Shown here: one piece after another, positions 1,236-16,812 of the stretch | Numbering within the stretch: the stretch's first letter is position 1 | Layout of the letters: the number at the start of each line of letters is the position of its first letter | Source: an uncultured Eubacteriales bacterium | Lineage (GTDB): Bacteria; Bacillota; Clostridia; Oscillospirales; Oscillospiraceae | Reading direction: 5' to 3' | DNA length: 19,395 nucleotides | NCBI GenBank assembly: GCA_900313295.1 | Contig: OMQS01000025.1 | Location: 1-19,395 of the forward strand | Made by a program: the position numbers and the translations under genes | Notes under the pieces: model-generated | Database searches by the model: none | What the model was told of the DNA's origin: nothing | Seen by the model: the letters and a program-made list of their open reading frames with translations, nothing else

Positions 1236-1303
1236 GGCAATTTTTTTGAACTTATTAAAATATAGATCTGCGCTCAGTTTTGCTGGCTTTTTCGGGGGCG
1301 GTG

Positions 1304-1312
1304 TGGTATAGT
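1304..1312 (+). promoter_or_regulatory. Possible extended -10 promoter of tex
   Basis: TGG followed by TATAGT (1307-1312) forms an extended -10 element 37 bp before the tex start. No good -35 box is present at the usual distance. This is a weak call based on motif and position only. Confidence 0.4.
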
Positions 1313-1348
1313 ATCAGGCAACGATATTTTTTTATGAAAGGATGGCCC

Positions 1349-3508
1349 ATGGATATTATTCAAACGCTGGCCCAGGAGCTGGGCAAGGAACCCCGCCATG
1401 TGGAAAACGTTGTGCAGCTTCTGGACGAGGGCAACACCATCCCCTTCATCGCCCGCTACCGCAAGGAGCTGCACGGCGCCATGGACGATACCTCCCTCCG
1501 CACGCTGGAGGAGCGGCTCCGGTATCTCCGGAATCTGGACGAGCGGCGGGAAACGGTGAAAAAGGCCATTGACGAGCAGGGCAAGCTGACGGAGGAGCTG
1601 GCCGCCGCCATTGACAGCGCCAAGACGCTGGCGGAGGTGGAGGATCTCTACCGTCCCTACAAGCAAAAGCGCCGCACCCGCGCCACCATGGCCAAGGAAA
1701 AAGGGCTGGAGCCGCTGGCGCAGCTGCTGCTGGCGCAGGAGCGGGACTGCCCGCGGCCGGAGGACGCCGCGCGGGAGTATGTCGACCCGAATAAGGGCGT
1801 AGAGAGCGTCGAGGACGCCTTACAGGGCGCCGGCGACATCATCGCCGAGCAGATCAGCGACGACGCCGCCATCCGCAAAAGCCTGCGGGCGCTGCTCATG
1901 CGGCAGGGGCGGCTGGTGAGCTGCGCCGCCACGGAGGAGGACAGCGTTTATCGGCTGTACTATGACTTCACGCAGGCCGTTTCCCGCCTGCAGGGACACC
2001 AGATCCTGGCCATCAACCGAGGCGAAAAGGAAGGAATGCTGAAGGTTTCCATCGCTCCGGAACGGGAGCAGGTGCTACCTTTGCTGCGGCGGGCGGTGGT
2101 GCGTCCCGCCTCGGCGGCCATGGAGTTTATTAAGTCCGCCTGCGACGATGCCTATGACCGGCTGATCTTCCCCTCCCTGGAGCGGGAGATCCGCAGCACG
2201 CTGACGGAGCAGGCCAACGAGGGCGCCATCGGGCAGTTCGCCCTGAATCTGAAGCCGCTGCTGATGCAGCCACCGGTGAAGGGCAAGGTCACCATGGGGC
2301 TGGATCCCGGCTACCGCATGGGCTGCAAGGTGGCTGTGGTGGACGGCACGGGCAAAGTGCTGGACACCGCCGTGGTATACCCCACCTACGGCCAGCGCCA
2401 GAAAGACGAGGCCATTGCCGCGCTGGCAAGGCTCATTAAAAAATACGGCGTGGAGCACATCGCCATTGGCAACGGCACCGCCAGCCGTGAAACCGAGCAG
2501 ATGGCGGCGGAACTTATCCGGCAGGTGAACGAAAGCGGCGCAAACGTCAGCTATATGATCGTTTCCGAGGCGGGCGCCTCCGTGTACTCCGCCAGCAAGC
2601 TGGCAGCGGAGGAATTCCCCCAGTTCGACGTGAACCTGCGCTCTGCCGTGTCTATTGCAAGGCGGCTGCAGGATCCGCTGGCGGAGCTGGTGAAGATAGA
2701 CCCCAAGGCCATCGGCGTGGGGCAGTATCAGCATGACATGCCCCCCAAGCAGCTGGATGAAGCCCTCAGCGGCGTGGTGGAGGACTGCGTAAACGCCGTG
2801 GGCGTGGACATCAACACGGCTTCCCCCTCTCTGCTGCAGCGGGTAGCGGGGCTGAACAGCACCACGGCGAAAAACGTGGTGGCCTACCGGGAGGAAAACG
2901 GCATTTTCACCTCCCGCGCGCAGATCAAAAAAGTGCCCAAGCTGGGTCCCAAGGCTTTCCAGCAGTGCGCAGGCTTTCTGCGGGTGCCGGAGAGCAAGAG
3001 CGTGCTGGACAACACTGCCGTCCACCCCGAGAGCTACGACGCCGCCAAGGCGCTGCTGGAGCTGACGGGACACACGGCGGAGGACGTGCGAGCCGGCCGG
3101 ATCGCCGACCTGCCGGAGCGTGTCAGAGCCTACGGCGAGGAGAAGGCTGCCGCTGCCGTGGGCGTGGGCGTGCCCACCCTGCGGGACATTGTGGCGGAGC
3201 TTCTGAAGCCCGGACGGGACGTTCGGGACGAGCTGCCCAAGCCCATTCTGCGCACGGACGTGCTGGAGATGAAGGATCTGAAGCCCGGCATGGTGCTCAC
3301 GGGCACCGTGCGCAACGTCATTGACTTTGGCGTATTCGTGGACATTGGCGTGCATCAGGACGGGCTGGTGCATATCTCGCAGGTATCCGACAGATTCATC
3401 AAGCACCCCTCCGAGGCTGTGTCCGTGGGGGACGTCGTGAAAGTAGCGGTGCTGGACGTGGACGAAAAGAAAAAACGTATCAGCCTCAGCATGAAGCAGG
3501 CAAAATAA
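1349..3508 (+). CDS. tex: Tex-family S1 RNA-binding protein
   Basis: Tex is a conserved cytoplasmic nucleic-acid-binding protein of the transcription-accessory family; its precise job is poorly settled. The product is 719 residues, the length of B. subtilis YdcI. The order of parts is typical: a helical Tex N-domain in the first 190 or so residues (NTIPFIARYRKELHGAMDD is a family hallmark), a YqgF/RNase H-like domain from about 311 (TMGLDPGYRMGCKVAVVDG), a helix-hairpin-helix region near 487 (DINTASPSLLQRVAGLNS), and an S1 domain at about 644-715 (GTVRNVIDFGVFVDIGVHQD, then GLVHISQVSDRF). ATG 1349 is chosen because AAAGGA (1337-1342) sits six bases upstream. The in-frame alternatives at 1280 and 1334 lack that support. 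The gene is monocistronic and followed by an intrinsic terminator. Confidence 0.95.
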   Translation: MDIIQTLAQELGKEPRHVENVVQLLDEGNTIPFIARYRKELHGAMDDTSLRTLEERLRYLRNLDERRETVKKAIDEQGKLTEELAAAIDSAKTLAEVEDLYRPYKQKRRTRATMAKEKGLEPLAQLLLAQERDCPRPEDAAREYVDPNKGVESVEDALQGAGDIIAEQISDDAAIRKSLRALLMRQGRLVSCAATEEDSVYRLYYDFTQAVSRLQGHQILAINRGEKEGMLKVSIAPEREQVLPLLRRAVVRPASAAMEFIKSACDDAYDRLIFPSLEREIRSTLTEQANEGAIGQFALNLKPLLMQPPVKGKVTMGLDPGYRMGCKVAVVDGTGKVLDTAVVYPTYGQRQKDEAIAALARLIKKYGVEHIAIGNGTASRETEQMAAELIRQVNESGANVSYMIVSEAGASVYSASKLAAEEFPQFDVNLRSAVSIARRLQDPLAELVKIDPKAIGVGQYQHDMPPKQLDEALSGVVEDCVNAVGVDINTASPSLLQRVAGLNSTTAKNVVAYREENGIFTSRAQIKKVPKLGPKAFQQCAGFLRVPESKSVLDNTAVHPESYDAAKALLELTGHTAEDVRAGRIADLPERVRAYGEEKAAAAVGVGVPTLRDIVAELLKPGRDVRDELPKPILRTDVLEMKDLKPGMVLTGTVRNVIDFGVFVDIGVHQDGLVHISQVSDRFIKHPSEAVSVGDVVKVAVLDVDEKKKRISLSMKQAK

Positions 3509-3577: not shown

Positions 3578-4198
3578 TTATTCTTCCGGCTTCTTTTCAA
3601 GGCCGGAGCGCAGCAGGATATAGAGGGCGCGGCGGATCTTCTCCATCTGCTCGGGGCCGGCGTCGTCCTCCGCCAGCACCTTCAGGCCGATGAAATTGCC
3701 GATGCCCATGTTGATGAATGACCAAATCATGGGATCCATCCCCTCCGGCAGGCTGCGGTTTTTGACAAGAGCGGGCACATACCGCTGGGCATAGAGATAG
3801 TAATACTGCAAAAACAGGTCGCGGTCGATATACAGCGACTCGAAAATGAGGTTGTAGCAGGCGGGGTTTTCATAGGCAAAGCGGATGAACTCCATGATAT
3901 AGCCCACCTGCACATCCACGGTGTCGCCGGTGATCTTCCCCGCGCGGGAGTCCAGATAGCCTTGCAGACGGCGGGCAAAGCTCTGCATGATGTAGACATA
4001 GAGCTGGTACTTGCTGCGGAAATAAATATAAAATGCGCCCACGGACAATCCGGCACTCCGGGCTATATCCTTGATGGTGGTGTTGCGGTAGCCCTGCTGG
4101 CTGAAGCAGTCCTCCGCCGCCTTCACCAGTTTGTCAAAGCTGCGGCGGCCCTCCTCGCTCTCGGGGATCACCACCACAAGATCCAGTTTGCTGTTCAT
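3578..4198 (-). CDS. TetR/AcrR-family repressor, probable regulator of the divergent importer/3HB operon
   Basis: This is a complete TetR regulator of 206 residues. The N-terminal HTH is clear: FDKLVKAAEDCFSQQGYRNT, TIKDIARSAGLSVGAFYIYF and RSKYQLY. The helical C-terminal domain carries the IMEFIRFAYENPACYNLIFE pattern common to regulators of fatty-acid and short-acid metabolism. ATG 4198 is chosen because AAGGAG lies eight bases upstream. The longer frame to 4267 would begin inside the -35 box of the gene's own promoter. The gene is divergent from livH with a 290-bp shared regulatory region that holds both promoters and a long palindrome. Repression of that operon, relieved by a substrate-related small molecule, is the likely role. 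The effector is unknown. Confidence 0.88.
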   Translation of the reverse strand: MNSKLDLVVVIPESEEGRRSFDKLVKAAEDCFSQQGYRNTTIKDIARSAGLSVGAFYIYFRSKYQLYVYIMQSFARRLQGYLDSRAGKITGDTVDVQVGYIMEFIRFAYENPACYNLIFESLYIDRDLFLQYYYLYAQRYVPALVKNRSLPEGMDPMIWSFINMGIGNFIGLKVLAEDDAGPEQMEKIRRALYILLRSGLEKKPEE

Positions 4199-4238
4199 CG
4201 ACCTTGCTCCTTCTTCTCCCATATAAAAACTTACATAT

Positions 4239-4267
4239 AGAATAGCGTGTTTTTTTCGGTCTGTCAA
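4239..4267 (-). promoter_or_regulatory. Promoter of the tetR gene
   Basis: On the minus strand TTGACA (4267-4262) and TATTCT (4244-4239) are separated by 17 bp and lie about 40 bp upstream of the tetR start at 4198. Confidence 0.65.
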
Positions 4268-4398
4268 TGAAAAATCCCTTGTTCCGCCGCCGCAGGCAAG
4301 ATAAACTATGATTCACATTATAAAACTGTTAAAAAATACAATTTTCTTCGATTTTTTTGTGCAGTATGAAAGAAAAAGCCAAAATACGCAAAATTATA

Positions 4399-4428
4399 TT
4401 GACAAATCCGTCACAAGCCATATATTAT
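4399..4428 (+). promoter_or_regulatory. Promoter of the importer/3HB operon
   Basis: A perfect -35 box TTGACA (4399-4404) is followed by TATATT (4421-4426, 16-bp spacer) or TATTAT (4423-4428, 18-bp spacer). The start of transcription would be near 4434, just before the palindrome at 4439-4460. Confidence 0.75.
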
Positions 4429-4438
4429 GAAGCCATAA

Positions 4439-4460
4439 CAGGTGAATGCATATTCACCTG
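4439..4460. promoter_or_regulatory. Palindromic operator in the operon leader
   Basis: A perfect inverted repeat has 9-bp arms CAGGTGAAT (4439-4447) and ATTCACCTG (4452-4460) around GCAT. It sits about 5-26 bases after the predicted transcription start and is not followed by a T-run, so it reads as a repressor site and not a terminator. The adjacent TetR protein is the obvious candidate ligand; that link is inferred. Confidence 0.75.
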
Positions 4461-4488
4461 CTGAAGACCACAAAGGAGGGATGCGCTT

Positions 4489-5424
4489 ATGTTTGCCGCA
4501 TTTTTATCCACGGTGTGCGCCTCACTGCTGAGCATCTGCGTGACGGCGCTGTCGGCGTTCTCCGTCACCATTATTTTCCGAACCTCCACCACGGCCAACT
4601 TTGCCCAAGGCTCCGTGGCGGCGTTCGGCTGCTATGTGGTGGCCAAATGCCTGAACCAATGGGGGATCCCCGTGTATCTCGGCGTGCTGCCGGGGATGCT
4701 GGTGGGCGTGCTCATCGGCCTGTTCATCGACCTCATGGTGTTCCGCAAGGGGCGCTATGTGGGCGAGCTGGGCAAGCAGATCATCACCATGGGCTTCGTG
4801 TCCCTGTTCTACGGCGGCATTCCCCTGATCTTCGGAAACCCCGAGTTCATCCCCTTTGAGTCGTTTTATAACACCACTAAGGCCGGAGTCGACTCCAATC
4901 TGGTGGTGAAGGCTTTCGGCGGCGAGATCGTTTTCACCAAGCACGCCCTCATTTGCACCGCCATTACCGCCGTGGTGCTGGCCGTCCTGTTTCTGCTGCT
5001 GAAATACAGCAAATGGGGGCTGGGCGTGCGCGCCACCGCCTCCAGCGAGTTTACCGCGGAGCTTATGGGCATTAACACCCACGTCATCACCGCCATCTCC
5101 TGGGCGCTGGCCTGCGCTCTGGGCGTGCTGGCCGCCGTGATGTACGCCGGCGGCGGCGCCATGATAAGCACCTCCTTCATGGGCACCATTCAGGTCAACG
5201 CTTTTCTGGCCTGCATTCTGGGCGGCTTTGCCACCTTCTACGGGCCTATCGTGGGTGCTGTGCTGATCCCCGTTCTGTCCAACTGCGTGGGATTTTTAGC
5301 CAATTTCCCCGCCTTTTACAACATCAGCCGCTGGCAGATGGTCATTGTGTATGTCCTGCTGCTGGCCATCATTCTCATCAAGCCCCAGGGTCTGTTTGGG
5401 AAGAAAGTGGTAAAGAAGGTGTGA
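4489..5424 (+). CDS. livH: ABC transporter permease, LivH type
   Basis: This is a 311-residue polytopic inner-membrane permease of the branched-chain amino acid (HAAT) ABC family, one of two subunits forming the channel. About eight hydrophobic segments are visible. Family features include TTANFAQGSVAAFGCYV near residue 35 and GLGVRATASSEFTAELMGIN near 170, the coupling-helix region that contacts the ATPases. ATG 4489 follows AAAGGAGGG (4472-4480) at eight bases. It is the first gene of the operon, two bases before livM. HAAT importers carry branched-chain amino acids but also urea, aromatic acids and other small carboxylates, so the family alone does not give the substrate. Confidence 0.92.
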   Translation: MFAAFLSTVCASLLSICVTALSAFSVTIIFRTSTTANFAQGSVAAFGCYVVAKCLNQWGIPVYLGVLPGMLVGVLIGLFIDLMVFRKGRYVGELGKQIITMGFVSLFYGGIPLIFGNPEFIPFESFYNTTKAGVDSNLVVKAFGGEIVFTKHALICTAITAVVLAVLFLLLKYSKWGLGVRATASSEFTAELMGINTHVITAISWALACALGVLAAVMYAGGGAMISTSFMGTIQVNAFLACILGGFATFYGPIVGAVLIPVLSNCVGFLANFPAFYNISRWQMVIVYVLLLAIILIKPQGLFGKKVVKKV

Positions 5425-5426
5425 CC

Positions 5427-6513
5427 ATGACTGATCTGAACGTAAAGCAGGAATACCTGCACCTTACTTATGTCGCCCACCGCAAGAAGAGCGCCGGAGA
5501 AAAAGTCCGGCAGCTTCTGGGCATCCCCCTGACGCAGTATCTGATCTTCGCCGTGGTGCTGGCCGCCTTTCCCCTGCTGGCGCAGGCGGGCGTGCTGACC
5601 AGCTCCTTCGTGTTCGCCGTCGGCAACACCATGATATACGCCATCATGGCCATCGGCTTCTGCCTGCTCATGGGCTATTCGGGTCTGGCCTCTCTGGGCA
5701 CAGCTGGCTTTGTGGGCATCGGCGCCTACATCGCCTACTACTTTATGCAGGTCTACGGTGCCCCCTTCGGCGCAGCGTTTATCGTGACGGTGATGGTGAG
5801 CCTGTTCAGCGGCGTGCTGGTGGGCTTCATCTCCCTGCGTATCGAGGGCATCTATCTGGCCATTCTGACGCTTGGGCTTTCGGAGATCCTGCGCAACACC
5901 TTTATCTCCCTGAAATCCACCATTAAGCTGGACATGTCCAAGGTGCGGCTTTTCGGCGTGAAGATCGGTGAGGATCAGGTGTACCTGCTGATTCTGGCGC
6001 TGTTCGTGGTGCTGCTGCTCATCACCTCCAACCTCATCCGCAGTCCCATCGGGCGGGCGCTGCTGTCGGTGAAAAACAGCACCTCCGCCGCCCAGGCCAT
6101 GGGCATCAGCCTTATGAAGTATCGGGTGCTGGCCTTTGTCATCTCCACGGTATACGCCGCCATCGCGGGGCTTATGTATATGATGCTCCTGCGGAACATG
6201 ACCACCTCCACCTCTACCCTGCTGAGCATGGCCACCTCCCTGAACATTCTGGGTGCTGTGGTCATCGGCGGAGCAAAGTCCCTGTGGGGCACTACCTTCG
6301 GCGTGTTCATCATCTACGGCCTGCAATCGACGTTTTTGAGCAAGATTCCCTTCTTTGTGGAAAACCCCGCCTTTATCACCATGATAACGGGTCTTCTTAT
6401 TATTCTCATTGTGATGTTCTTCCCCGGCGGCATAGCGCAAATGGTGGGGAATCTGGTGCAGAAGCGAAAGAGCAGCAAAGCCGCTGCCAAAGTGCAAAGG
6501 AGGGTGGACAGCT

Positions 6514-6527
<14 letters not shown>
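5427..6527 (+). CDS. livM: ABC transporter permease, LivM type
   Basis: This is the second channel subunit of the HAAT importer, 366 residues. A hydrophilic N-terminus of about 35 residues precedes the first membrane segment. Family motifs include GYSGLASLGTAGFVGIGAYI at about residue 85 and SPIGRALLSVKNSTSAAQAM at about 205, the ATPase-contact loop, then GGAKSLWGTTFGVFI. ATG 5427 is preferred over GTG 5421 because AAGAAGGT (5413-5420) is correctly spaced only for the former. The stop overlaps livG by 14 bases, which points to translational coupling. The C-terminus is unusually rich in Lys, Arg and Ala. Confidence 0.92.
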
Positions 6528-7919
<1,392 letters not shown>

Positions 7920-7920
<1 letters not shown>

Positions 7921-8633
7921 TGGCACTGTTGGAAGTGAGGAACCTGCAGGTGAATTACGGCCCCATTCAGGCCGTGAAGGGCATTGATCTGGACGTGGAA
8001 AAGGGCACCATCGTGGCGCTGCTGGGCGCCAACGGTGCCGGAAAGACCACCACCCTCCGCGCCATCACCGGCATGGTGAAGGGCTACGGCTCCGTCCGGC
8101 TGGAGGAAACAGAGATCCTGGGGCAGCGGGGGTATAAGACCGCGCGCATGGGCGTGAACATGTCGCCGGAGGGGCGGCTGATCTTCTCGGCGCTCACGGT
8201 GGAGGAGAATCTCAAGGCCGGCGCCTACTGCCTCAAGAGCGCCAAACAGTACCAGAAGAATCTGGAGCGGGTGCAGGAGCTGTTCCCCATTTTGAAGGAG
8301 CGGCGGCGCCAGCAGGCGGGCACTTTGTCCGGCGGCGAGCAGCAGATGCTAGCCATCGGGCGGGCATTGATGGCAGATCCCAGGATCCTGCTGCTGGATG
8401 AGCCGTCCCTGGGACTGGCGCCTCTTATTACGCAGGGTATTTTCAGAACACTGCAGGCCATTCGCGCGGAGGGCACCACTATTCTCATGGTGGAGCAGAA
8501 CGCTCTGGCCACGCTGAAGATCGCCGACTACGGCTATGTGCTGGAGCTGGGCAAGATCAGCATGCACGGCCCCGCCGGCCGGCTCATTCAGGATGACCGG
8601 CTCATCGAGGCCTATCTCGGCAACAAAAAGTAA
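7920..8633 (+). CDS. livF: ABC transporter ATPase, LivF type
   Basis: This is the second ATPase of the importer, 237 residues, a normal family length. Walker A GANGAGKTT is at about 36-44, the signature LSGGEQQML near 136, Walker B ILLLDEPSLGLAP near 157 and the H-loop region TILMVEQNA near 193. The stop of livG and the ATG overlap by one base (TAATG), and GAGGAGGTG (7903-7911) lies eight bases upstream, so livG and livF are translationally coupled and likely made in equal amounts. Unlike LivG it has no extension. Confidence 0.95.
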
Positions 8634-8639
8634 AGCGGC

Positions 8640-8669
8640 TTGACGCTCCCCGAGGAGCTTAGGCATATA
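8640..8669 (+). promoter_or_regulatory. Possible internal promoter ahead of the binding-protein gene
   Basis: TTGACG (8640-8645) and CATATA (8664-8669) are separated by 18 bp in the 69-bp gap after livF. A small hairpin GCTCC/GGAGC (8645-8658) overlaps the spacer. Binding proteins are needed in excess over the transporter, so extra transcription here would make sense, but the match is moderate. Confidence 0.35.
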
Positions 8670-8702
8670 CGATCAATAAAAACAAAAAAAGGAGAATGAA
8701 CC

Positions 8703-10022
8703 ATGAAAAAGTTTCTTTCCCTGCTGCTGGCGGCAGCGATGCTCTGCGTACTCCTGGCTGGCTGCGGCAAAAAGGACGACGAGTCCGGCAGCGACTACAA
8801 GCCCTTCGTAGCGGTGCAGGGTGTCACCGATGACACCATCCTCGTGGGTAACACCGCCGCCACCACCGGCGCCTACGCCACCGTGGGTGTTCCCTTCAAC
8901 GCCGGCATGGAAGCAGCCTTCAAGGCCTACAACGACGCCGGCGGCTTCCAGGGCAAAAGCATTGTCCTCAAGCACTATGACGACGGCTTCGACGGCGCAC
9001 AGGGCATGACCTACACCAAGCAGCTGGTGGAGACCGACAAGGTGTTTGCCATCGTGGGTCATTTCGGCACCAACACCGTGGGTGCTACGCTGGACTACCT
9101 GAAGGAAAAGGGCGTTCCCATGGTCTATGCCGCCACCGGCATTGACGATCTGTATCAGGAAGGCGCCAAGGGCAATGACGCCGTTATCTACTCCGTGCAG
9201 CCCATCTACAGCGCCGAGGGTCGCGTGCTGCTGGCTCGCGCCGTTGCTCCCACCGCTGACGGCATGGGTCTGGGCGGCACCAAGATCGGTGTCATCGCCA
9301 CCACCGACGACGCCGGCACCGGCCTGCTGGCAGGCGTGAAGCGTGAAAACGAGGATCTGAAGGCCGACATCACCGTGCAGGAAGTCGAGGCCTCCGCCAC
9401 CGACTTCTCCGCCGCCGTGAACGTGCTGAAGAATGCCGGCTGCGACGTGGTCATCGCCTGCATGAACCAGAATCCTCTGGCCACCCTCATGAACACCATG
9501 CGTGACGTGAACTACAACGTCAACGTGGTCACCTCCTATGTCAACGCCTCCGCCACCACTCTGGGCGCCTTCGTGGACACCGGCGCCATCACCGCAAACC
9601 GCATGGTCTACTGCACCGCATGGCTGGATGTCACCACCGAGCAGGGTCTGGCTGACTACACCGCCTTCTACACCGCCATGAGTGCCTGGGAGCTGGCCAA
9701 CGGTGAGTCCGGCAGCACCTACGCTCTGAACTCCTACGCCATGGCAGGCTACATCGCCGGCAATATCTTCGTGCAGGCGCTGCAGGCCGTGGACAAGGCC
9801 GGCGTGGAGCTGAACTATGCAAACTTTGCCAAGGTCATGGAGGAAACGAACTTCGCCATCCCCATGGGCGGCAGCATCAGCTATGCCAACGGCGACCGTC
9901 TGGGCGTGACCGCTCTGGCGCTGAACTGCGTGAGCCTTGAGAAGAACGAAGCGGGCGTGTATGCGCTGGTGCCCGTAAGCCCCATCATGTCCCTGGCGGA
10001 CGTGGTGGCCTCCACCAAGTAA
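8703..10022 (+). CDS. livJ: ABC transporter substrate-binding lipoprotein, LivJ type
   Basis: This is the extracytoplasmic binding protein of the importer, 439 residues. The N-terminus is a lipoprotein signal: MKKF, a Leu/Ala-rich core, then the lipobox LLAGC with the lipidated Cys at residue 21, followed by a short charged linker. The mature part has the periplasmic-binding-protein type I fold of the Leu/Ile/Val-binding family, with DTILVGNTAATTGAYATVGV near residue 43, where GAYATVG corresponds to the ligand-contacting loop, and VFAIVGHFGTNTVGATLDYL near 112. ATG 8703 follows AAAAGGAG at eight bases. It lies after the ATPase genes and before the hydrolases. A strong hairpin follows it. The ligand cannot be read from sequence alone; operon context points to 3-hydroxybutyrate or a derivative. 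Confidence 0.93.
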   Translation: MKKFLSLLLAAAMLCVLLAGCGKKDDESGSDYKPFVAVQGVTDDTILVGNTAATTGAYATVGVPFNAGMEAAFKAYNDAGGFQGKSIVLKHYDDGFDGAQGMTYTKQLVETDKVFAIVGHFGTNTVGATLDYLKEKGVPMVYAATGIDDLYQEGAKGNDAVIYSVQPIYSAEGRVLLARAVAPTADGMGLGGTKIGVIATTDDAGTGLLAGVKRENEDLKADITVQEVEASATDFSAAVNVLKNAGCDVVIACMNQNPLATLMNTMRDVNYNVNVVTSYVNASATTLGAFVDTGAITANRMVYCTAWLDVTTEQGLADYTAFYTAMSAWELANGESGSTYALNSYAMAGYIAGNIFVQALQAVDKAGVELNYANFAKVMEETNFAIPMGGSISYANGDRLGVTALALNCVSLEKNEAGVYALVPVSPIMSLADVVASTK

Positions 10023-10038
10023 ACCCCGGAATGATCTC

Positions 10039-10070
10039 CCTCTGCGGCTGTCTTCGGGCGGCCGCAGAGG
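10039..10070 (+). other. Intercistronic hairpin with UUCG tetraloop
   Basis: CCTCTGCGGC (10039-10048) pairs perfectly with GCCGCAGAGG (10061-10070). The interior extends the stem by four more pairs, two of them U-G wobbles, to a C(UUCG)G tetraloop at 10052-10057. No T-run follows, so it is probably not an efficient terminator. It more likely protects the 3' end of the binding-protein message or causes partial termination, giving more binding protein than downstream enzymes. Confidence 0.8.
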
Positions 10071-10094
10071 CAAAGCGAAAGGACGGTGGAACAT

Positions 10095-10910
10095 ATGCCA
10101 ACCTTTACCATGGACAGCAGACAGATCTATTATGAATCCCACGGTCAGGGCAAGCCTTTGGTGCTGCTCAACGGCATCATGATGTCCTGCGCAAGCTGGA
10201 AGCCCTTTATTGAGGCTCTGTCTGCCAACAACCGCCTGCTTTTGGTGGATTTTCTGGATCAGGGCCGCAGCGACAAGATGGTTGGGCAGGTCTATGACCA
10301 CGGCATTCAGGTGCAGGTGGTGCGCCGCCTGCTGGAGCATCTGGATCTGAAAAGTGCCTGCATCGCGGGCATCTCCTACGGCAGCGAGGTGGCGCTGGAG
10401 TTTGCCGTGACCTATCCGGAGATGACGGAGCGGCTGATCCTGCTCAACGCCACCGCCGCCACCGGCTGGTGGCTGGGAGACATCGGCAAAGCCTGGAATC
10501 TGGCCGCAGGCAGCGGCGAAGCGTATTACCACACCTCCATCCCCGTGATCTACTCCCCCGCCTTCTACACGGAGCGCCACGAGTGGATGGAAAAGCGCAA
10601 GGAGCTGCTGATCCCCCTGTTCGGAAACCCCGACTTCATCGGCGCCATGCAGCGCCTGACGGACAGCTCCGAAAACTACGACCTGCGGGGTCGGCTGGGC
10701 GAGGTGCAATGCCCCACGCTGGTGGTATCCTGTCAGGAGGACTATCTCACGCCCCTGAAAGAGCAGGAGTATCTGGCCGCCCACATAAAGGCCTGCCACC
10801 ATGTGATCCTGCCGAACTGCGGCCACGCCTCCATGTATGAGCAGCCCACGCTATTTGCATCGCTGATCGCAGGCTTTGCAGGTCTCAGTCACACGAAATT
10901 CGACATTTGA
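10095..10910 (+). CDS. Alpha/beta hydrolase, probable cytosolic esterase (first of two)
   Basis: This is a 271-residue alpha/beta-fold hydrolase without signal peptide. The oxyanion strand is PLVLLNGIMMS (residues 21-31), the nucleophile elbow is GISYG with Ser94, the acid is probably the Asp in CQEDYLTP, and the base is the His in NCGHASMYE, so a full Ser-Asp-His triad is present. ATG 10095 is chosen over GTG 10086, which would nearly touch the AAAGGA sequence at 10078-10083. It is ten bases from the next hydrolase and in the same operon as a 3-hydroxybutyrate dehydrogenase. From memory, similar hydrolases occur in clostridia, but the substrate is not established. Cleavage of a 3-hydroxybutyrate ester or oligomer is an inference from the neighbours. 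Confidence 0.85.
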   Translation: MPTFTMDSRQIYYESHGQGKPLVLLNGIMMSCASWKPFIEALSANNRLLLVDFLDQGRSDKMVGQVYDHGIQVQVVRRLLEHLDLKSACIAGISYGSEVALEFAVTYPEMTERLILLNATAATGWWLGDIGKAWNLAAGSGEAYYHTSIPVIYSPAFYTERHEWMEKRKELLIPLFGNPDFIGAMQRLTDSSENYDLRGRLGEVQCPTLVVSCQEDYLTPLKEQEYLAAHIKACHHVILPNCGHASMYEQPTLFASLIAGFAGLSHTKFDI

Positions 10911-10920
10911 GGAACGACCT

Positions 10921-11943
10921 ATGAGTTTATCCTATCAGACTATTACCACGCCTCGGCTCACCACGGCCTATCTGGCGGCGGGCACCCTCGGCAAGCCCCG
11001 CCTCCTGCTGCTCCACGGCAACGTGGCCTCCGCCGTGTTCTACCAGCGCCTCATGGAGCATCTGGCGGCGGACTTTGAAATGCTGGCTCCGGATTTCCGG
11101 TGCTTTGGCCATTCCTCCGCTCTGCCCATTGACGCCACGCGGGGCATGCGGGATTTTTCCGACGACGTGGAGGACTTTGTGACCGCCATGGGCTGGGATC
11201 GGTTCAGCATCATGGGCTGGTCCATGGGCGGCGGCGTGGCCATGCAGTACGCCATTGACCATCCGGAAAAGGTGGAAAGCCTGATCCTGCAGGCGCCGCT
11301 GGCACCCTTCGGCTTCGGCGGCAGCTACGGTGAAACGGGCACCCCCGTGGAGCCTGCGGGACTCGGCAGCGGCGCCGCCTGCGCCAATCAGGCACTGCTG
11401 CAGGCCATTCGCAACGGCGACCGCACGCTGCCCGGGCAGGTCATCGACAGCGTGTATGTGGCCGCCGGCTACAAGCTCCCCCAGGAGGATCGGGAGAAAT
11501 ACATCGACTCCGTGCTCCAGTGCAAGCTGGGGGACGACATGTGCCAGGGCAACAGCACCCCCTGCGCCCAGTGGCCGTATGCCATGGGCGGCGACAAGGG
11601 CGTGTCCAACACCATGTCCGTGCGCTACTGCGACCTGTCCGCTCTGGCGGAGGTGCAGCCGCAAATGCCCATTCTGTGGCTGCGGGGCGACAAGGACGTA
11701 ATGGTGTCCGACCACAGCGCCTGTGACGTGGCGGTGCTGGGGCAGATGGGCTTTTTGCCCAACTACCCAGGGGCGGACGTATTCCCCTCCCAGCCCATGG
11801 TGGCGCAGACGCGCTATGTGCTGGAGCGGTATCGCGCCAAGGGCGGCCGCTATGAGGAGCACGTCATCGCCGGCAGCGGCCACGGCTGCATGCTGGATCA
11901 CGAGGATGAGGTGGCCGCCCTGCTGCGGCAATTCATCCGCTGA
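10921..11943 (+). CDS. Alpha/beta hydrolase resembling Bacillus intracellular PHB depolymerase
   Basis: This 340-residue cytosolic alpha/beta hydrolase has the oxyanion region LLLLHGNVAS (28-37), PDFRCFGHS (57-65), the lipase box GWSMG with Ser101, the probable acid Asp in LRGDKDVMVSD and the base His in GSGHGCML. The box and its position closely match the GWSMG box with Ser102 recalled for Bacillus thuringiensis intracellular PHB depolymerase PhaZ, and the surrounding pattern (LLLHGN, DFRxFGxS, RDFSDDVEDF) is alike. This was judged from memory, not by alignment. The cap region (about 140-240) is longer than in small esterases and contains several Cys residues. ATG 10921 follows GAGGA (10909-10913) at seven bases. 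With the next gene it suggests intracellular release and oxidation of 3-hydroxybutyrate. Confidence 0.8.
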   Translation: MSLSYQTITTPRLTTAYLAAGTLGKPRLLLLHGNVASAVFYQRLMEHLAADFEMLAPDFRCFGHSSALPIDATRGMRDFSDDVEDFVTAMGWDRFSIMGWSMGGGVAMQYAIDHPEKVESLILQAPLAPFGFGGSYGETGTPVEPAGLGSGAACANQALLQAIRNGDRTLPGQVIDSVYVAAGYKLPQEDREKYIDSVLQCKLGDDMCQGNSTPCAQWPYAMGGDKGVSNTMSVRYCDLSALAEVQPQMPILWLRGDKDVMVSDHSACDVAVLGQMGFLPNYPGADVFPSQPMVAQTRYVLERYRAKGGRYEEHVIAGSGHGCMLDHEDEVAALLRQFIR

Positions 11944-11963
11944 AAGTTTAGGAGGAAACATCC

Positions 11964-12725
11964 ATGTTAAACGATAAGATCGCCATTGTCACCGGCGCTG
12001 CCAGCGGCATTGGCTACGCCGTGGCGCAGGCGCTGCGGCAGGAAGGCGCGCAGGTGGTCATGGCGGATGTCAACGAGGCGCTGCTGCGGGAGTCCGCCCG
12101 CAAGCTGGGCGGCGTTCCCTTCGTGGGCAACCTGACAAAGCGGGAGGACTGCCGGCAGCTGGTGGATTTCACCGCCCAGCGTTTCGGCCGCATCGACATT
12201 CTGGCCAATGTGGCGGGCGTGCAGCACGTGTGCCCCATTGAGGAGTTTCCGGAGGACAAGTGGGACTTCATCATCAGTCTCATGCTCACCGCCCCCTTCC
12301 TGCTGACCCGCTACTGCTGGCCTTACATGAAGGAAAACGGCTGGGGTCGCATCATCAACATGAGCAGCATCCACGGGCTGGTGGCCTCGGAATTCAAGAG
12401 CGCCTATGTGTCCGCCAAGCACGGCCTCATCGGCTTCACCAAAACCGCTGCCATGGAGGGTGGCTCTCTGGGCATCACCTGCAACGCCATCTGCCCCGCC
12501 TATGTCATGACCCCGCTGGTGGAAAAGCAGATCGCGGCGCAGGCGCAGACCCACGGCATTCCCGAGGACAAAGTCATCTCCGACATCATGCTCTCCAAGG
12601 CCGCCATCAAGAAGATGGTGCCGGCGGAAAACATCGGCGCCATTGTGAAATTCCTCTGCTCCGACGCCGCCGACTCCATTACCGGCATCGCCCTGCCCAT
12701 CGACGGCGGCTGGACAGCCAACTGA
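11964..12725 (+). CDS. bdhA: D-3-hydroxybutyrate dehydrogenase (SDR family)
   Basis: This 253-residue short-chain dehydrogenase oxidises (R)-3-hydroxybutyrate to acetoacetate with NAD, or runs the reverse reaction. The Rossmann motif TGAASGIG is at 10-17, NVAG (usually NNAG) at 82-85, and the catalytic Ser135, Tyr148 and Lys152 are in place. Residues known to bind 3-hydroxybutyrate in Pseudomonas 3HB dehydrogenase (Gln94, His144, Lys152, Gln196) have exact counterparts here at a constant offset of seven: Gln87, His137, Lys145 and Gln189. The family strings HGLVAS and TPLVEKQI are present. One difference is Tyr180 where that enzyme has Trp187. AGGAGG (11950-11955) lies eight bases before ATG 11964. 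It is the last gene of the operon, before a terminator. Confidence 0.88.
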   Translation: MLNDKIAIVTGAASGIGYAVAQALRQEGAQVVMADVNEALLRESARKLGGVPFVGNLTKREDCRQLVDFTAQRFGRIDILANVAGVQHVCPIEEFPEDKWDFIISLMLTAPFLLTRYCWPYMKENGWGRIINMSSIHGLVASEFKSAYVSAKHGLIGFTKTAAMEGGSLGITCNAICPAYVMTPLVEKQIAAQAQTHGIPEDKVISDIMLSKAAIKKMVPAENIGAIVKFLCSDAADSITGIALPIDGGWTAN

Positions 12726-12761
12726 CACGCATTTCCCCCTACCTCCCTCTCCGCATATAGG

Positions 12762-12795
12762 AAAAAGCCCGATGCCTGATGCATCGGGCTTTTTT
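12762..12795. terminator. Bidirectional intrinsic terminator
   Basis: GCCCGATGC (12767-12775) and GCATCGGGC (12781-12789) form a perfect 9-bp stem around CTGAT. A5 on the left and T6 on the right extend the stem and supply U-tracts in both directions, ending both the 3HB operon and the convergent CoA-transferase transcript. Confidence 0.93.
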
Positions 12796-12815
12796 CCTTG
12801 GTATAGAGAGGCAAA

Positions 12816-14138
12816 TCACCAGATATGGTTCTTTTCCGCTTCCTCCAGCAGCCACTCTCGGAAATCGGGATGAGCGATCTTCGTCAGCGCCTGCACCCGC
12901 TCGGCAATGGTCAGGCCGCGGAGCCACGCAATGCCGTACTCGGTGACCACATAGTCCACGTCGTTGCGGGAGGTGGTCACGGCGGCGCCGGACGTCAGCA
13001 TGGGGACGATCTTGGAGTGCAGCTTGCCGTCGCGGTCGGTGTAGGTGGAGTGCATGGCCAGAATGGACTTGCCGCCGGGGGACATCTGTGCGCCCTGAAC
13101 GGTCTCCGCCTGACCGCCGGAGCCGGAGAACTGCACAGGGCCTACGGATTCGCTGGCCGCCTGGCCGGTGAGATCCATCTCCAGCGTCGCGTTGATGGAC
13201 ACGAACTTGTTGTTGCGGCCGATGGTATAGGGGTCGTTGGAATAGGTGCTGGACTTAAAGAGCACCATGGGGTTGTCATCCAAAAAGTCATACAGCCGGC
13301 GGCTGCCCATGGTGAAAGAACAGATGCTCACGCCGTCGTTGAAGCCCTTTTGGGTGTTGTCCACGGCGCCGCACTCAATGAGATCCACCATAGTCTCCGT
13401 GAACATCTCCGTGTGGATGCCCAGATGCTTCTTGGACTTCAGCTCGTTGGCCACGGCATTGGGAATGTTGCCGATGCCCAGCTGGATGGTGGAGCCGTCC
13501 TCCACCAGAGAGGCCACATATTTGCCGATGACGGCGTCCTTTTCCGTGTAGGGCGCAGGATCCACGCACAGAATGGGACGGTCGGACTCCACCAGCGCCG
13601 TGACCTGGGAGATATGCACCATGGTGTCGCCGAAGGTGCGGGGATAATTGGGGTTCACCTCCACCAGCAGCACTGCGCCGGCGCGCACCACGTCCATCTC
13701 ATAAATGGAGCTGACAGACAGGGACATATAGCCCCGCGCGTCCATAGGGGACACGGTGGTCAGCAGCACGGGGCGGCGGTGCTCATGACGGATCCGATCC
13801 AGCGTTTTTCGCAGGATGCTGGTGGAGTGCTGGGGCACGGCGCTGACCAGATGCTGGGCGTTGGCCTTGCGCAGGCCGGCGGTGAAGAACCAACCGTGGT
13901 GCGCCATGACGGCCTGCATGGACGGATCGTGGAAGGCGGGATAGTCCATGGTGGGGATGCAGCTTTGCAGGATGAGATCCTTCACCCCCGTTTCCTTCAG
14001 GTGGGGCAGCTCGTTCATAAGTGCGTCGGGGCAGGAGGCGGCCATAGGCGTGAAAATGAAGTCGCCGCTCTGAATATGCTCCAGCACCTGACGGGCGGAC
14101 ATTTTCTTCCGATCATACTCTTGCTGATACTTGTTCAT
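12816..14138 (-). CDS. Acetyl-CoA hydrolase/transferase-family CoA-transferase (butyryl- or 4-hydroxybutyrate-CoA:acetate type)
   Basis: This 440-residue enzyme belongs to the family of Cat1, 4-hydroxybutyrate CoA-transferase and butyryl-CoA:acetate CoA-transferase. These enzymes move CoA between a short acid and acetyl-CoA through a glutamyl-CoA thioester. The CoA-binding stretch QLGIGNIPNAV (about 219-229), the catalytic Glu near residue 244 in GIHTEMFTE, NDGVSICSFTMGSRRLY, and the C-terminal FSGSGGQAETVQGA and MSPGGKSI motifs are all present, so it should be active. Which acid it uses is not fixed by these motifs. ATG 14138 follows AAAGGA at six bases. It converges on the 3-hydroxybutyrate operon and lies downstream of a LysR gene on the same strand. 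Coupling to 3HB or acetoacetate activation, or to butyrate formation, is plausible. Confidence 0.88.
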   Translation of the reverse strand: MNKYQQEYDRKKMSARQVLEHIQSGDFIFTPMAASCPDALMNELPHLKETGVKDLILQSCIPTMDYPAFHDPSMQAVMAHHGWFFTAGLRKANAQHLVSAVPQHSTSILRKTLDRIRHEHRRPVLLTTVSPMDARGYMSLSVSSIYEMDVVRAGAVLLVEVNPNYPRTFGDTMVHISQVTALVESDRPILCVDPAPYTEKDAVIGKYVASLVEDGSTIQLGIGNIPNAVANELKSKKHLGIHTEMFTETMVDLIECGAVDNTQKGFNDGVSICSFTMGSRRLYDFLDDNPMVLFKSSTYSNDPYTIGRNNKFVSINATLEMDLTGQAASESVGPVQFSGSGGQAETVQGAQMSPGGKSILAMHSTYTDRDGKLHSKIVPMLTSGAAVTTSRNDVDYVVTEYGIAWLRGLTIAERVQALTKIAHPDFREWLLEEAEKNHIW

Positions 14139-14187
14139 AAGCGTTCCTTTCCCTGCTTGGCAGAATTGTTTTCAGTTTTCTGCTATA

Positions 14188-14217
14188 AGCATAAACCATG
14201 GGAGAAAAAATGTACAA
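14188..14217 (-). promoter_or_regulatory. Possible promoter of the CoA-transferase
   Basis: On the minus strand TTGTAC (14217-14212) and TATGCT (14193-14188) are 18 bp apart, about 50 bp before the start. Both boxes are imperfect, as expected for a promoter that needs an activator. Confidence 0.35.
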
Positions 14218-14226
14218 TACACGTTT

Positions 14227-14241
14227 TTTATCCCTTATAAA
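14227..14241. promoter_or_regulatory. Candidate LysR-type binding site
   Basis: TTTAT-CCCTT-ATAAA is a 15-bp dyad that contains the T-N11-A pattern (14228-14240) typical of LysR-family sites. It lies just upstream of the putative CoA-transferase promoter and just after the lysR terminator, so the neighbouring LysR protein may act here. Confidence 0.4.
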
Positions 14242-14256
14242 TTGAAATTATGATGC

Positions 14257-14288
14257 AAAAACGGCGGCTCCGCCTACCGAAGCCGCCG
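14257..14288 (-). terminator. Intrinsic terminator of the lysR gene
   Basis: Read on the minus strand, CGGCGGCT and AGCCGCCG form an 8-bp GC-rich stem with an 11-base loop followed by TTTTT. It begins seven bases after the lysR stop and separates that transcript from the CoA-transferase gene. Confidence 0.8.
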
Positions 14289-14294
14289 CAGAAT

Positions 14295-15164
14295 TTACTG
14301 CCCGCACATATCCAGAAAATGCCGCATGGGCGCCGTGACGAACCTCCCTTTTCGGTAGGCCACAGACAGCGTCCACGGGGCGCAAGGCTCCCGCAGCCGC
14401 AGGCACACGGCCTCGGAGCGGGGGTGCTTGTCCATGAGCGCTTTGGGGAAAAAGGCCACGCCCTGCCCGTCGATGGCCATTTCATACAGAAGATCCCACT
14501 GGGAGCTTTCAAAAGCCACCTGCGGCTCAAAACCTGCCTCGCGGCACAGGCTCTCCACCACGCCGCTGAACATGAACTCCTGCGAGATCATCAGCAGCGG
14601 CTCCGTGCGCAGACGGGAAAAGCTGACGCTCCCCGCTCCCGCCAGCGGATGGTCCCGACTCACCACCGCCACGATCTCCGACCGCACGGCGGGCTGCGCC
14701 ACATAGTCCTCCCTGCTCACCGGCTCCAGCAGCACGCCCAGATCCAGCTCGCCCAGTTCCAAAAGGGAGAGGATCTGGCGGGAGGGCACCTCCATGATCT
14801 GCAGCGCGACCTCGGGATAGGCCGCGCGGAACTGGCTGATGAGGGTGTGGTAGTAAATGGAGCCGGAGGTGGGGGGAATGCCAATGCGGAGGGTGTCGGC
14901 GGCGCCGATCCGCTGGCGCAGCTCGCGGGTCTGGCCGTCCACAAAGGAGAGGATCCGCTGGGCGTACTCGCAGAACAGCTCGCCGCTGGGGGTAAGGGTG
15001 AAGTCCTTGGCGGTGCGGTCGACGAAGTCGGCGCCGAACTCCTGCTCCAGCAGGCGCACGCTCTTGCTCAGAGCAGGCTGGCTGACATGGAGCAGCTGCG
15101 CCGCGCGGGTAAAGCTGCGCTGGCGCACTACCTGGGTGAAATATTGCAGCTGATTCAGCGTCAT
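14295..15164 (-). CDS. LysR-family transcriptional regulator
   Basis: This complete LysR-type regulator has 289 residues. The N-terminal winged HTH is canonical: MTLNQLQYFTQVVRQRSFTR, then AAQLLHVSQPALSKSVRLLE. The C-terminal substrate-binding domain starts at about residue 90 (LRIGIPPTSGSIYYHTLISQ), with the usual LxxLxxGELDLG feature near 130. ATG 15164 follows GGAGGG at six bases. It lies upstream of, and on the same strand as, the CoA-transferase gene, with its own terminator between them and a dyad with the T-N11-A pattern in that gap. Control of the CoA-transferase by a short acid or its CoA ester is a reasonable inference. Its leader of about 160 nt contains a gene remnant. Confidence 0.92.
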   Translation of the reverse strand: MTLNQLQYFTQVVRQRSFTRAAQLLHVSQPALSKSVRLLEQEFGADFVDRTAKDFTLTPSGELFCEYAQRILSFVDGQTRELRQRIGAADTLRIGIPPTSGSIYYHTLISQFRAAYPEVALQIMEVPSRQILSLLELGELDLGVLLEPVSREDYVAQPAVRSEIVAVVSRDHPLAGAGSVSFSRLRTEPLLMISQEFMFSGVVESLCREAGFEPQVAFESSQWDLLYEMAIDGQGVAFFPKALMDKHPRSEAVCLRLREPCAPWTLSVAYRKGRFVTAPMRHFLDMCGQ

Positions 15165-15416: not shown

Positions 15417-16733
15417 TTAGAGGGCTTTTGTATATTTCCGCATGGTGGTGGCGGCGTAGAGCATGACCAGCAGCTCCGTGATGGGCATGGCCAACCACAG
15501 AGACGAGGCTCCCGCCAGCTTCGGGAGAAGCAGGATCAGCGTGCCGCTGATGACAAGCCCCCGCGCCACCGACACGACAAAGGCCGCCTTGGGCTTCATG
15601 ATGGCCTGGAAATAGTAGGTGGAGAAAATGTTGAAGGGCAGGAGCAGGAAGGACAGGGCGTAGGTGCGGACGATGGTGGGCGCCATGGCCAGGATCTCCG
15701 GCGTGGGGGTCATGAAGATGCGGACATAGAGATCGGGGCAGGCCATGCTGAGGACTGTCCAGAAGACGCCGAAGAACGCCGCTGTCCAGAGGGCGAAGCG
15801 GAGGGTCTCGCGGATACGGTCTCCCTTGCCGGCGCCGAAGTTCATGGACATGATGGGCTGGGACGCCTGCCCGACGCTGTAGCCGCAGCACTGAACAAAG
15901 GTGCTGACCTGTATGATGGGGCCGTAGATGGCCAGAGCGTCGGTGCTGAGGCAGCGCATGATCTGGCGGTTAAAGAGCACGGTCAAAATGCCCATGGCCA
16001 CGTCTATGAAAAACGTGGAAAAGCCGGTGACGGAAATCTCGCAGAGCTTGCGGCGGAGCTTTTCCGGCTTTATGAGGCGGAGCGTATTTTTGCGGCTGAC
16101 GAAATGGGTCAGCTGGATGACCGTGGTTATGACGGCACCGATGGCGGTGGCCAAGCCGGCGCCGTAGATGCCCATGTCGCAGGTGAAAACGAAGAAGTAA
16201 TCGCCGAAAATATTGAAAATGCCGCCGCACAGGACGCCGAGGGTGGCAAGGCCGGGGCTTTTGTCATTGCGTAGGAAGGCCGCCACCACCTGATTAAAAA
16301 GATACAGGGGGAACACATATTTAATGGGGCGCATATACGCCTGCGCCAGCACCAGCAGGGAGTTGTCGGCGCCGAAGAAGGTGAGGATGGGGCGGTCAAA
16401 GAAGATGATGCCCACCCAGGCCGGCACAGCCAGCACCACGGCGCCGATGAGGGCCGCCGAGAAATACTGGTTTTCGCTGCCGTCGCCTGTTTCGCCGCCG
16501 CGGCGGATGCTGAAGAGAACGCTGCCGCCGGCGCCCATGAGCAGGCCGAGGCTATAGATGATGTTCCAGACCGGTGCAACGACGGCCAGCGCCGCCGTCC
16601 CCTCCGGCCCCTGATACTGCCCGACCATGGCCACGTCCACGATAGAATAGATCGAGGCGATCATGGCGACGCCAAAGGAGGCGGACAAATATTTGAAATA
16701 AATGGGCTTGATCCGATCGGTCAAAAAATCCAT
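15417..16733 (-). CDS. MATE-family efflux transporter
   Basis: This is a 438-residue inner-membrane protein of the multidrug and toxic compound extrusion family, which exports drugs or metabolites in exchange for sodium or protons. About twelve hydrophobic segments are visible. The first helix region, YSIVDVAMVGQYQGPEGTAA, is a MATE hallmark, and the halves repeat the pattern (GYSVGQASQPIMSMNFGAGK near 280). ATG 16733 is preferred over the frame to 16781 because AAAGGAGG lies seven bases upstream and the longer frame would start inside a leader hairpin. It is transcribed alone. An intrinsic terminator between its promoter and start codon implies control by attenuation. The substrate is unknown. 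Confidence 0.9.
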   Translation of the reverse strand: MDFLTDRIKPIYFKYLSASFGVAMIASIYSIVDVAMVGQYQGPEGTAALAVVAPVWNIIYSLGLLMGAGGSVLFSIRRGGETGDGSENQYFSAALIGAVVLAVPAWVGIIFFDRPILTFFGADNSLLVLAQAYMRPIKYVFPLYLFNQVVAAFLRNDKSPGLATLGVLCGGIFNIFGDYFFVFTCDMGIYGAGLATAIGAVITTVIQLTHFVSRKNTLRLIKPEKLRRKLCEISVTGFSTFFIDVAMGILTVLFNRQIMRCLSTDALAIYGPIIQVSTFVQCCGYSVGQASQPIMSMNFGAGKGDRIRETLRFALWTAAFFGVFWTVLSMACPDLYVRIFMTPTPEILAMAPTIVRTYALSFLLLPFNIFSTYYFQAIMKPKAAFVVSVARGLVISGTLILLLPKLAGASSLWLAMPITELLVMLYAATTMRKYTKAL

Positions 16734-16767
16734 ATTTACTCCTCCTTTTTTCACAGAATTCTGCACG

Positions 16768-16812
16768 AAAAAAACGGACAAGAAGCAGACATCTCAGTCT
16801 GACTCTTGTCCG
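16768..16812 (-). terminator. Leader terminator (attenuator) of the MATE gene
   Basis: Read on the minus strand, CGGACAAGA (16812-16804) pairs perfectly with TCTTGTCCG (16783-16775). Inside, after a 2x2 internal loop, CAGAC pairs with GTCTG around a 6-base loop. Seven Ts follow at once (16774-16768). The structure is a full intrinsic terminator placed upstream of the MATE ribosome binding site. Confidence 0.88.

Follow-up and report, generated by a model that had tools for sequence, protein, structure and literature searches.

A candidate uptake and catabolic module for 3-hydroxybutyrate esters around a HAAT-type importer in an uncultured Oscillospiraceae bacterium

What does an importer of the amino acid transporter kind carry when its genes stand in one operon with two alpha/beta hydrolases and a 3-hydroxybutyrate dehydrogenase? 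The question is raised by a stretch of 19,395 nucleotides (contig OMQS01000025.1 of assembly GCA_900313295.1, hereafter the window) from an uncultured Eubacteriales bacterium of the Oscillospiraceae. The default annotation of a HAAT importer is that of an amino acid transporter. A preliminary description of the window had proposed a module for uptake and oxidation of 3-hydroxybutyrate (3HB) esters or oligomers. Judging from the sequences analysed here, we think it probable, on balance, that the operon serves to take up and break down a short ester from which (R)-3HB or a very close 3-hydroxy acid is released, 3HB oligomers or simple esters being the most likely substrates.

The operon and its proteins

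The operon occupies positions 4489-12725 of the forward strand in the order LivH-LivM-LivG-LivF-binding protein-H1-H2-SDR, where H1 and H2 denote the two hydrolases and SDR the short-chain dehydrogenase. All named genes are complete frames in the list of open reading frames, and Pfam backs the family of all ten proteins that the preliminary description had named. We regard the genes as a single operon because of the overlaps or short gaps between them, a promoter-like site, an inverted repeat behind that site and a terminator-like hairpin 3' of the SDR gene. The ribosome-binding site is clear at most starts and weak at LivM. The module start at 4199 that had been proposed had to be given up, since this position falls inside a divergent TetR gene (3578-4267, reverse strand). 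In the following, G000 is the window's own genome, G018 its nearest relative, from the same genus, and L-numbers denote loci mapped in relatives, L034 being that of G018.

The SDR (11964-12725, forward) scores above the cut-offs of both TIGR01963 (328.7 bits, cut-off 307.05) and NF009093 (316.2 bits, cut-off 258). A search of solved chains has 1wmb as its best match, and every one of the top eleven rows bears the label (D-)3-hydroxybutyrate or hydroxybutyrate dehydrogenase. Gln87, Ser135, His137, Lys145, Tyr148, Lys152 and Gln189, which we take to be the substrate and catalytic residues, are all present; all but Lys152 had been listed, exactly, in the preliminary description. The seven residues are kept in 10 of the 11 other 3HB dehydrogenase-type SDRs of the mapped loci (the exception, L098, has Asn for His), and none of the ten FabG-type SDRs of these loci keeps the Gln, His and Lys. 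By curated cut-off and residues the protein is thus assigned as a D-3-hydroxybutyrate dehydrogenase, with NAD-dependent oxidation of (R)-3HB as its predicted reaction. It shares the substrate residues of TIGR01963 and 1wmb, and differs from known 3HB dehydrogenases by its place in the same operon as an ABC importer and two hydrolases.

Both hydrolases were said to be cytosolic, and no signal peptide was seen in either by eye. H1 (10095-10910, forward; Abhydrolase_6/1) carries a GISYG box at residue 92 with Ser94, and its closest solved chain is 4q3l, MGS-M2 (E 1.7e-80), for which a literature search found no substrate. H2 (10921-11943, forward; Abhydrolase_1, 81.9 bits) has the expected GWSMG box at 99-103 with Ser101, which the preliminary description had likened to that of the intracellular PHB depolymerase PhaZ of Bacillus. 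In an alignment of 20 H2 sequences (the window's and 19 of 120 listed relatives, out of 2476 found), Ser101, Asp259 and His321 are invariant in all 20 and probably form the catalytic triad. The best NCBIfam model of H2 is the intracellular short-chain-length polyhydroxyalkanoate (scl-PHA) depolymerase NF050089. All 20 aligned sequences match this family, whose E-value is the best obtained (6e-38, with 3.6e-18 for the runner-up); nine further hydrolase families likewise match every one of the 20. The closest solved chains are the P(3HB) depolymerases 8ynv (E 6e-21) and 8ynw (1.6e-20), the next following at 2.8e-13. H2 resembles these depolymerases in fold class, best model and solved relatives, but it has 340 residues against 288 model positions, and, unlike an intracellular PHA depolymerase, it is encoded downstream of importer genes in a genome where no polyhydroxybutyrate (PHB) synthase was detected. 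We also noted a protein of 595 residues (P0130) whose Pfam domains combine a short-chain dehydrogenase with a hydrolase like H2 (84% identity across 74% of H2); this is either a natural fusion or the result of a stop codon lost in assembly.

The importer is complete, as had been described. By Pfam it consists of two BPD_transp_2 permeases, two ATPases and one type I binding protein, as found in HAAT ABC importers and, in E. coli, in LivJ/LivK-LivHMGF. The genes, all forward, are LivH (4489-5424; PF02653, 102.2 bits), LivM (5421-6527, GTG start; PF02653, 109.5 bits), LivG (6514-7920; PF00005 from residue 224, PF12399), LivF (7920-8633, ATG at 7920; PF00005, 102.9 bits) and the gene of the substrate-binding protein, a HAAT-kind lipoprotein with a LAGC lipobox by eye (8703-10022; PF13458, 132.9 bits). 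LivG has an N-terminal extension (6514-7116) of about 200 charged residues with no Pfam match. Long LivG frames of 456-494 residues are also found in L034-L037, L044, L050 and L052, and short ones of 263-270 residues in L049, L075, L095 and L102; between G000 and G018 the extension is 61% identical and the ATPase part 93%.

The predicted model of the binding protein (pLDDT 92.9) has a HAAT-type fold, and its structural matches are HAAT-type proteins with many different ligands, solved Leu/Ile/Val-binding proteins among them. The amino acid contacts of LivJ/LivK are, as we assume, Ser79, Thr102, Tyr150 and Glu226. We aligned 37 binding proteins, namely that of the window, 30 of 120 listed relatives (977 found) and six from loci. 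At the position of Thr102 all 37 have Gly, at Tyr150 33 have Ala, and at Glu226 none has an acidic residue. The window protein itself has Thr, Gly, Ala and a non-acidic residue at the four positions, the change from Ser79 to Thr being conservative, whereas the second HAAT binding protein of the same genome retains Ser, Thr, Tyr and the acidic residue. By alignment, the binding protein is therefore without the LivJ/LivK amino acid signature. Unlike the window, the E. coli liv region (10 kb) has no such hydrolases or dehydrogenase.

The preliminary description had also placed next to the operon a convergent CoA-transferase with its own LysR, and both are there. The CoA-transferase (12816-14138, reverse; PF13336, 205.1 bits) is of the butyryl-CoA:acetate / 4-hydroxybutyrate superfamily. 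It scores far below the cut-off of the butyryl-CoA:acetate model TIGR03948 (307.6 of 674.8 bits) and matches the 4-hydroxybutyrate CoA-transferase 3gk7 with E 3.1e-96. Two more paralogues (37% and 34%) are present in the window's genome. The LysR-family gene (14295-15164, reverse; PF00126, PF03466) adjoins the CoA-transferase in L034 (77%) and in L044 (40%, truncated where the stretch ends) as well, as seen by tblastn. One thiolase above cut-off was found in G000 and one in G018.

Gene neighbourhoods in relatives and the link to PHB

A scan with the H2 alignment over one genome per species (84,980 species) yielded 395 confirmed stretches; from these we retained the best 80 loci, short contigs included; many contigs are short. 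Genes of relatives come from a codon-based caller and their labels from the best BLAST match, so that presence counts are approximate; some genes are dropped or merged, and only tblastn detected H1 in L052 and the SDR in L115. At least three of LivH, LivM, LivG, LivF and the binding protein lie within the stretch in 25 of the 80 loci (hereafter HAAT loci), which is a raw count without a background rate from random hydrolases, and loci of common descent are not independent. By gene call, four of the 25 have a 3HB dehydrogenase-type SDR (five with L115 by tblastn), 18 a KASIII-like enzyme, none both and three neither. Relatives of the CoA-transferase are present in 13. On our reading of the mapped genes, H1, H2 or both stand on the same strand behind the binding protein or the CoA-transferase in 14 of the 25; the others have a different order or a stretch that stops too early.

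In Clostridia and one Atopobiaceae genome the common order is KASIII-like-LivHMGF-binding protein-CoA-transferase-H1-TetR-H2, in some cases with FabG before KASIII. As annotated in representatives, part of the Clostridia-type loci have a MaoC hydratase, an acyl-CoA dehydrogenase and EtfBA or a thiolase close by. The fullest stretch by gene call, L079, holds FabG, KASIII, thiolase, MaoC, acyl-CoA dehydrogenase, EtfB, CoA-transferase, HAAT genes and H2; it has no H1, and the stretch stops at the CoA-transferase. Conservation of the gene order, which the preliminary description had offered as a check, was obtained in part. G018 keeps importer-H1-H2-SDR, with tblastn identities of 87% for H1, 84% for H2, 94% for the SDR and 95% for the CoA-transferase. 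The SDR has moved in L044 (CoA-transferase-SDR-TetR-LivHMGF-binding protein-H1-H2) and L049 (LivHMGF-binding protein-H2-CoA-transferase-SDR-TetR); in further loci it is absent, and the KASIII-like enzyme is found instead, with or without FabG.

The other Actinomycetota have a different importer order, binding protein-LivG-LivF-LivH-LivM. Importer genes accompany H2, TetR, a KASIII-like gene and a ligase in L065, L069 and L070, and L119 combines the binding protein and LivGFHM with a ligase, TetR, 3HB dehydrogenase, a hydrolase, ScoA, ScoB and H2. L105 and L107 have catabolic genes of the L119 type plus a divergent thiolase, with no HAAT genes in the stretch. This recurrence of the module in two phyla with different gene orders, as read from the mapped loci, is the strongest independent point. 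Named strains that carry it are Proteiniclasticum ruminis DSM 24773 and ML2, Clostridium rhizosphaerae YIM B02515, Oceanirhabdus seepicola ZWT and Agromyces sp. H66, and the named relatives of the binding protein and H2 include Clostridia, Oscillospiraceae and Lachnospiraceae assemblies. In P. ruminis DSM 24773 (L095) the genes stand in the rows FabG-KASIII-LivHMGF-binding protein and MaoC-acyl-CoA dehydrogenase-EtfBA-H2.

The KASIII-like enzyme corresponds to NF005308 and PRK06840 and often adjoins LivH (e.g. L075:7936-8958, L050:353-1432). To our knowledge, no reaction has been assigned to it. A gene that clusters with a CoaD-type pantetheine-phosphate adenylyltransferase stands behind H2 in three loci (L047:1268-1735, L050:11044-11508, L052:11045-11521), the L047 copy being above the NCBIfam cut-off.

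H2 is also linked to PHB storage genes. In four of the 80 loci, all from spirochaetes (L064, L066, L074 and L081), two tandem H2 frames stand next to PhaC- and PhaE-type genes; in L064 one of the two frames is cut by the stretch end. For the L066 pair Pfam gives PhaE 110.6 bits and PhaC_N 24.7 against a cut-off of 23.7. The PhaC and PhaE genes of these four loci are of the class III PHA synthase type. In a tree of 85 H2 sequences, where the HAAT label was assigned by hand to 34 rows with partial loci included, the spirochaete rows form one clade within a 35-row clade (100/99) that also contains 19 HAAT-labelled rows, the window among them.

We searched 32 genomes for PhaC and PhaE, namely four spirochaetes and 28 others, with the genome of L107 left out; completeness is given for G000 (77%) and G018 (97%) alone. 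PhaC_N is above cut-off in five (the four spirochaetes and the genome of L085) and PhaE in six (the four spirochaetes and the genomes of L053 and L061). In 25 of the 28 non-spirochaete genomes, G000 and G018 among them, no PhaC or PhaE over cut-off was found, and we rejected a PHB storage cycle in the window on the same result for these two. Given this distribution and the position of H2 beside PHB synthase genes in spirochaetes, H2 looks like a 3HB-ester hydrolase that would act, in HAAT carriers, mostly on imported material.

Further carriers of the binding protein came from a control set that sampled the order evenly (197 genomes, the window's own included). L143 (in G205) has KASIII-LivHMGF-binding protein-CoA-transferase-H1 with divergent MaoC and thiolase genes. 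L144 has acyl-CoA dehydrogenase, EtfB, thiolase, FabG and KASIII-LivHMGF-binding protein, where the contig ends. Together with the window, this type of binding protein accompanies 3-hydroxyacyl enzymes in all three carriers of this set. Genomes of the genus gave 37 further weak hits, which are not counted as H2; eight places were mapped. Three of them, L035-L037, have LivHMGF, a binding protein (42-45%), a CoA-transferase (41-43%), H1 (48-50%) and a weak H2-like frame, and L038-L042 have no HAAT genes.

A proposed route and the competing explanations

From the observed genes, families, residues and linkage we infer the imported ligand, the substrate of the hydrolases and the flux as follows. 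The binding protein would capture a 3HB oligomer or ester outside the cell and LivHMGF would import it, by the ABC mechanism that is established for the HAAT family. In the cytosol H1 and H2 would then act on the ester bonds, using a Ser-Asp-His mechanism, and the SDR would oxidise the released (R)-3HB to acetoacetate. The CoA-transferase may pass CoA from an acyl-CoA (e.g. butyryl- or acetyl-CoA) to acetoacetate (or 3HB), and a chromosomal thiolase could cleave acetoacetyl-CoA to acetyl-CoA. In relatives with FabG, the KASIII-like enzyme, MaoC and acyl-CoA dehydrogenase/Etf, the CoA-transferase would first act on 3HB itself. The resulting (R)-3HB-CoA may be divided between oxidation by FabG and thiolase and reduction to butyryl-CoA by MaoC and acyl-CoA dehydrogenase. 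Such a split agrees with what is known of 3HB fermentation, whose products are acetate and butyrate (PMC10096456).

The idea of a 3HB module draws strength from the cut-off and residues of the SDR, the linkage across phyla, the PHB synthase neighbours in spirochaetes and the lost signature of the binding protein. The depolymerase-like assignment of H2 in the preliminary description holds less well, and the ligand stays a candidate. Several results weigh against a 3HB-ester module. H2 remains below the cut-off of NF050089 (122.2 of 300 bits), H1 is under the cut-offs of all 25 models listed (36 matched), and the best solved sequence matches of the binding protein are labelled Leu/Ile/Val-binding (E 6.1e-9 and weaker). 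The CoA-transferase of the window forms a separate, convergent unit. The module is rare and patchy: at E<=1e-60 H2 occurs in one of the 197 order genomes, the window's own, and the binding protein in three, own included; within the genus a strong H2 match was found in one of 31 other genomes (G018), which is also the only relative in which the window's gene order was seen. L143 has importer, CoA-transferase and H1, and H2 is absent nearby. Three HAAT carriers have PHA synthase genes (PhaE in the genomes of L053 and L061, PhaC in that of L085), so that stored polymer is a possible substrate there. Finally, the 18 of 25 HAAT loci with a KASIII-like enzyme have no 3HB dehydrogenase in the stretch, and the common substrate could thus be another 3-hydroxy acid.

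This last point leads to the alternative that survives best, which we consider rather unlikely: the module would handle an ester or lactone of some other 3-hydroxy or 3-oxo acid (e.g. a butyrolactone, a C6 hydroxy-oxo acid or esters of 3-hydroxyvalerate), with 3HB as an intermediate at most. The frequency of NF005308, an enzyme with no assigned reaction, is in its favour. So are the top curated model of H1, 3-oxoadipate enol-lactonase, matched below its cut-off, and the many hydrolase families matched by H1 and H2. However, the SDR of the window passes the 3HB dehydrogenase cut-off with its substrate residues kept, and the spirochaete H2 genes adjoin those of PHB synthase. Moreover, in Actinomycetota the 3HB dehydrogenase occurs with a 3-oxoacid CoA-transferase (L105, L107, L119) and with a thiolase (L105, L107). 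A protocatechuate branch (PcaD, PcaIJ, PcaF) was also considered; H1 reaches 94.6 of the 255.85 bits for PcaD, and the 3HB dehydrogenase residues of the SDR speak against it.

The importer might instead take up free 3HB, and H1 and H2 would then serve as esterases of thioesters or side substrates. A plain hydroxy acid would fit a pocket that has no amine site, and L144 combines LivHMGF and the binding protein with FabG, KASIII, thiolase and EtfB; its contig ends at the binding protein, and any hydrolase genes that may follow would fall beyond it. The recurrence of H1 or H2 behind the binding protein or the CoA-transferase in 14 of 25 HAAT loci would be difficult to account for if the substrate were not an ester, and we regard uptake of the free acid as unlikely.

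Very improbable is an ordinary branched-chain amino acid importer which lipid-type enzymes adjoin by chance. The HAAT family itself, a weak match to the LivJ-type model NF011933 (47.1 bits, below the cut-off of 477) and the Leu/Ile/Val-binding proteins among the best solved sequence matches and the structural ones would fit it. We rejected it on the contact residues, which are lost across the 37 aligned binding proteins and kept in the genome's second one. The linkage is found in two phyla, and no aminotransferase was seen among the recurrent neighbours scanned, single-locus neighbours not being annotated. A scan of the same recurrent neighbours, which is not a full annotation, likewise gave no 2-hydroxyacyl-CoA dehydratase gene as a sign of leucine fermentation. 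That H2 mobilises the cell's own PHB beside an unrelated importer, as its position next to phaC-phaE-type genes in four spirochaete loci could suggest, is scarcely credible, since H2 sits inside the importer operon and PhaC or PhaE is over cut-off in just three of 28 non-spirochaete genomes, neither G000 nor G018 among them.

Regulation, flanking genes and relation to known systems

The control region lies between the operon and the divergent TetR-family gene, relatives of which were found by tblastn in L034 (82%), L044 (69%), L045 (54%) and L049 (60%); a TetR gene occurs repeatedly inside module loci. A putative sigma-70-like promoter (TTGACA-16-TATATT, 11 of 12 consensus positions) lies at 4399-4426 on the forward strand. 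An inverted repeat of 22 bases, CAGGTGAAT-GCAT-ATTCACCTG (4439-4460, forward), starts 13 bases behind the -10 hexamer and has a chance expectation of 0.01 copies in the window. Its core GGTGAATNNNNATTCACC is exact in one of 144 loci, that of G018, upstream of LivH; near-variants in L044 and L049 were judged by eye. The repeat is a candidate TetR operator, at which the regulator probably represses the operon until the substrate arrives. A terminator-like hairpin (12774-12789, forward; consensus match) fills part of the gap between the SDR and the convergent CoA-transferase gene.

Scans of the window for tRNA genes and Rfam families gave no matches. By eye, positions 1280-3508, upstream of the TetR gene, encode a Tex-like S1 RNA-binding protein, and positions 15417-16781, which lie downstream of the LysR gene, a MATE-like efflux protein. 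At 17175-18382 on the reverse strand, two neighbouring frames hold a diguanylate cyclase-like part (GGEEF, by eye) and a membrane part, split across reading frames.

The known 3HB uptake system hbtABC is of the TRAP type and not of the HAAT ABC kind, and we know of no hydrolase partners for it. It has been described for 3HB uptake in Ruegeria pomeroyi (PMC10130141). The anaerobe Ilyobacter ferments 3HB to acetate and butyrate; it belongs to a bacterial group other than that of the window, and the part of the source available to us mentions no importer of the HAAT kind (PMC10096456). In a limited literature search (titles and openings of abstracts) we found no description of the module or of any HAAT importer that carries 3HB or 3HB esters. 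Overall, the parts are of known kinds, and, as far as this search goes, their combination around a HAAT importer is new, with a substrate that we infer.

More tentatively, we propose that a branch of the HAAT family carries short (R)-3HB oligomers or esters into anaerobes and some Actinomycetota, mostly without a PHB synthase of their own. These organisms might scavenge the ketone-body polymers of others, either via 3HB dehydrogenase or via an (R)-specific CoA route with FabG, the KASIII-like enzyme, MaoC and acyl-CoA dehydrogenase/Etf. The named carrier strains make the module directly testable. If the proposal is true, many annotations of HAAT importers would be corrected, and two kinds of uptake system for 3HB would be known in bacteria instead of one. 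It would also hint at the way in which anaerobes of the gut and rumen exploit fragments of PHB or esters of ketone bodies.

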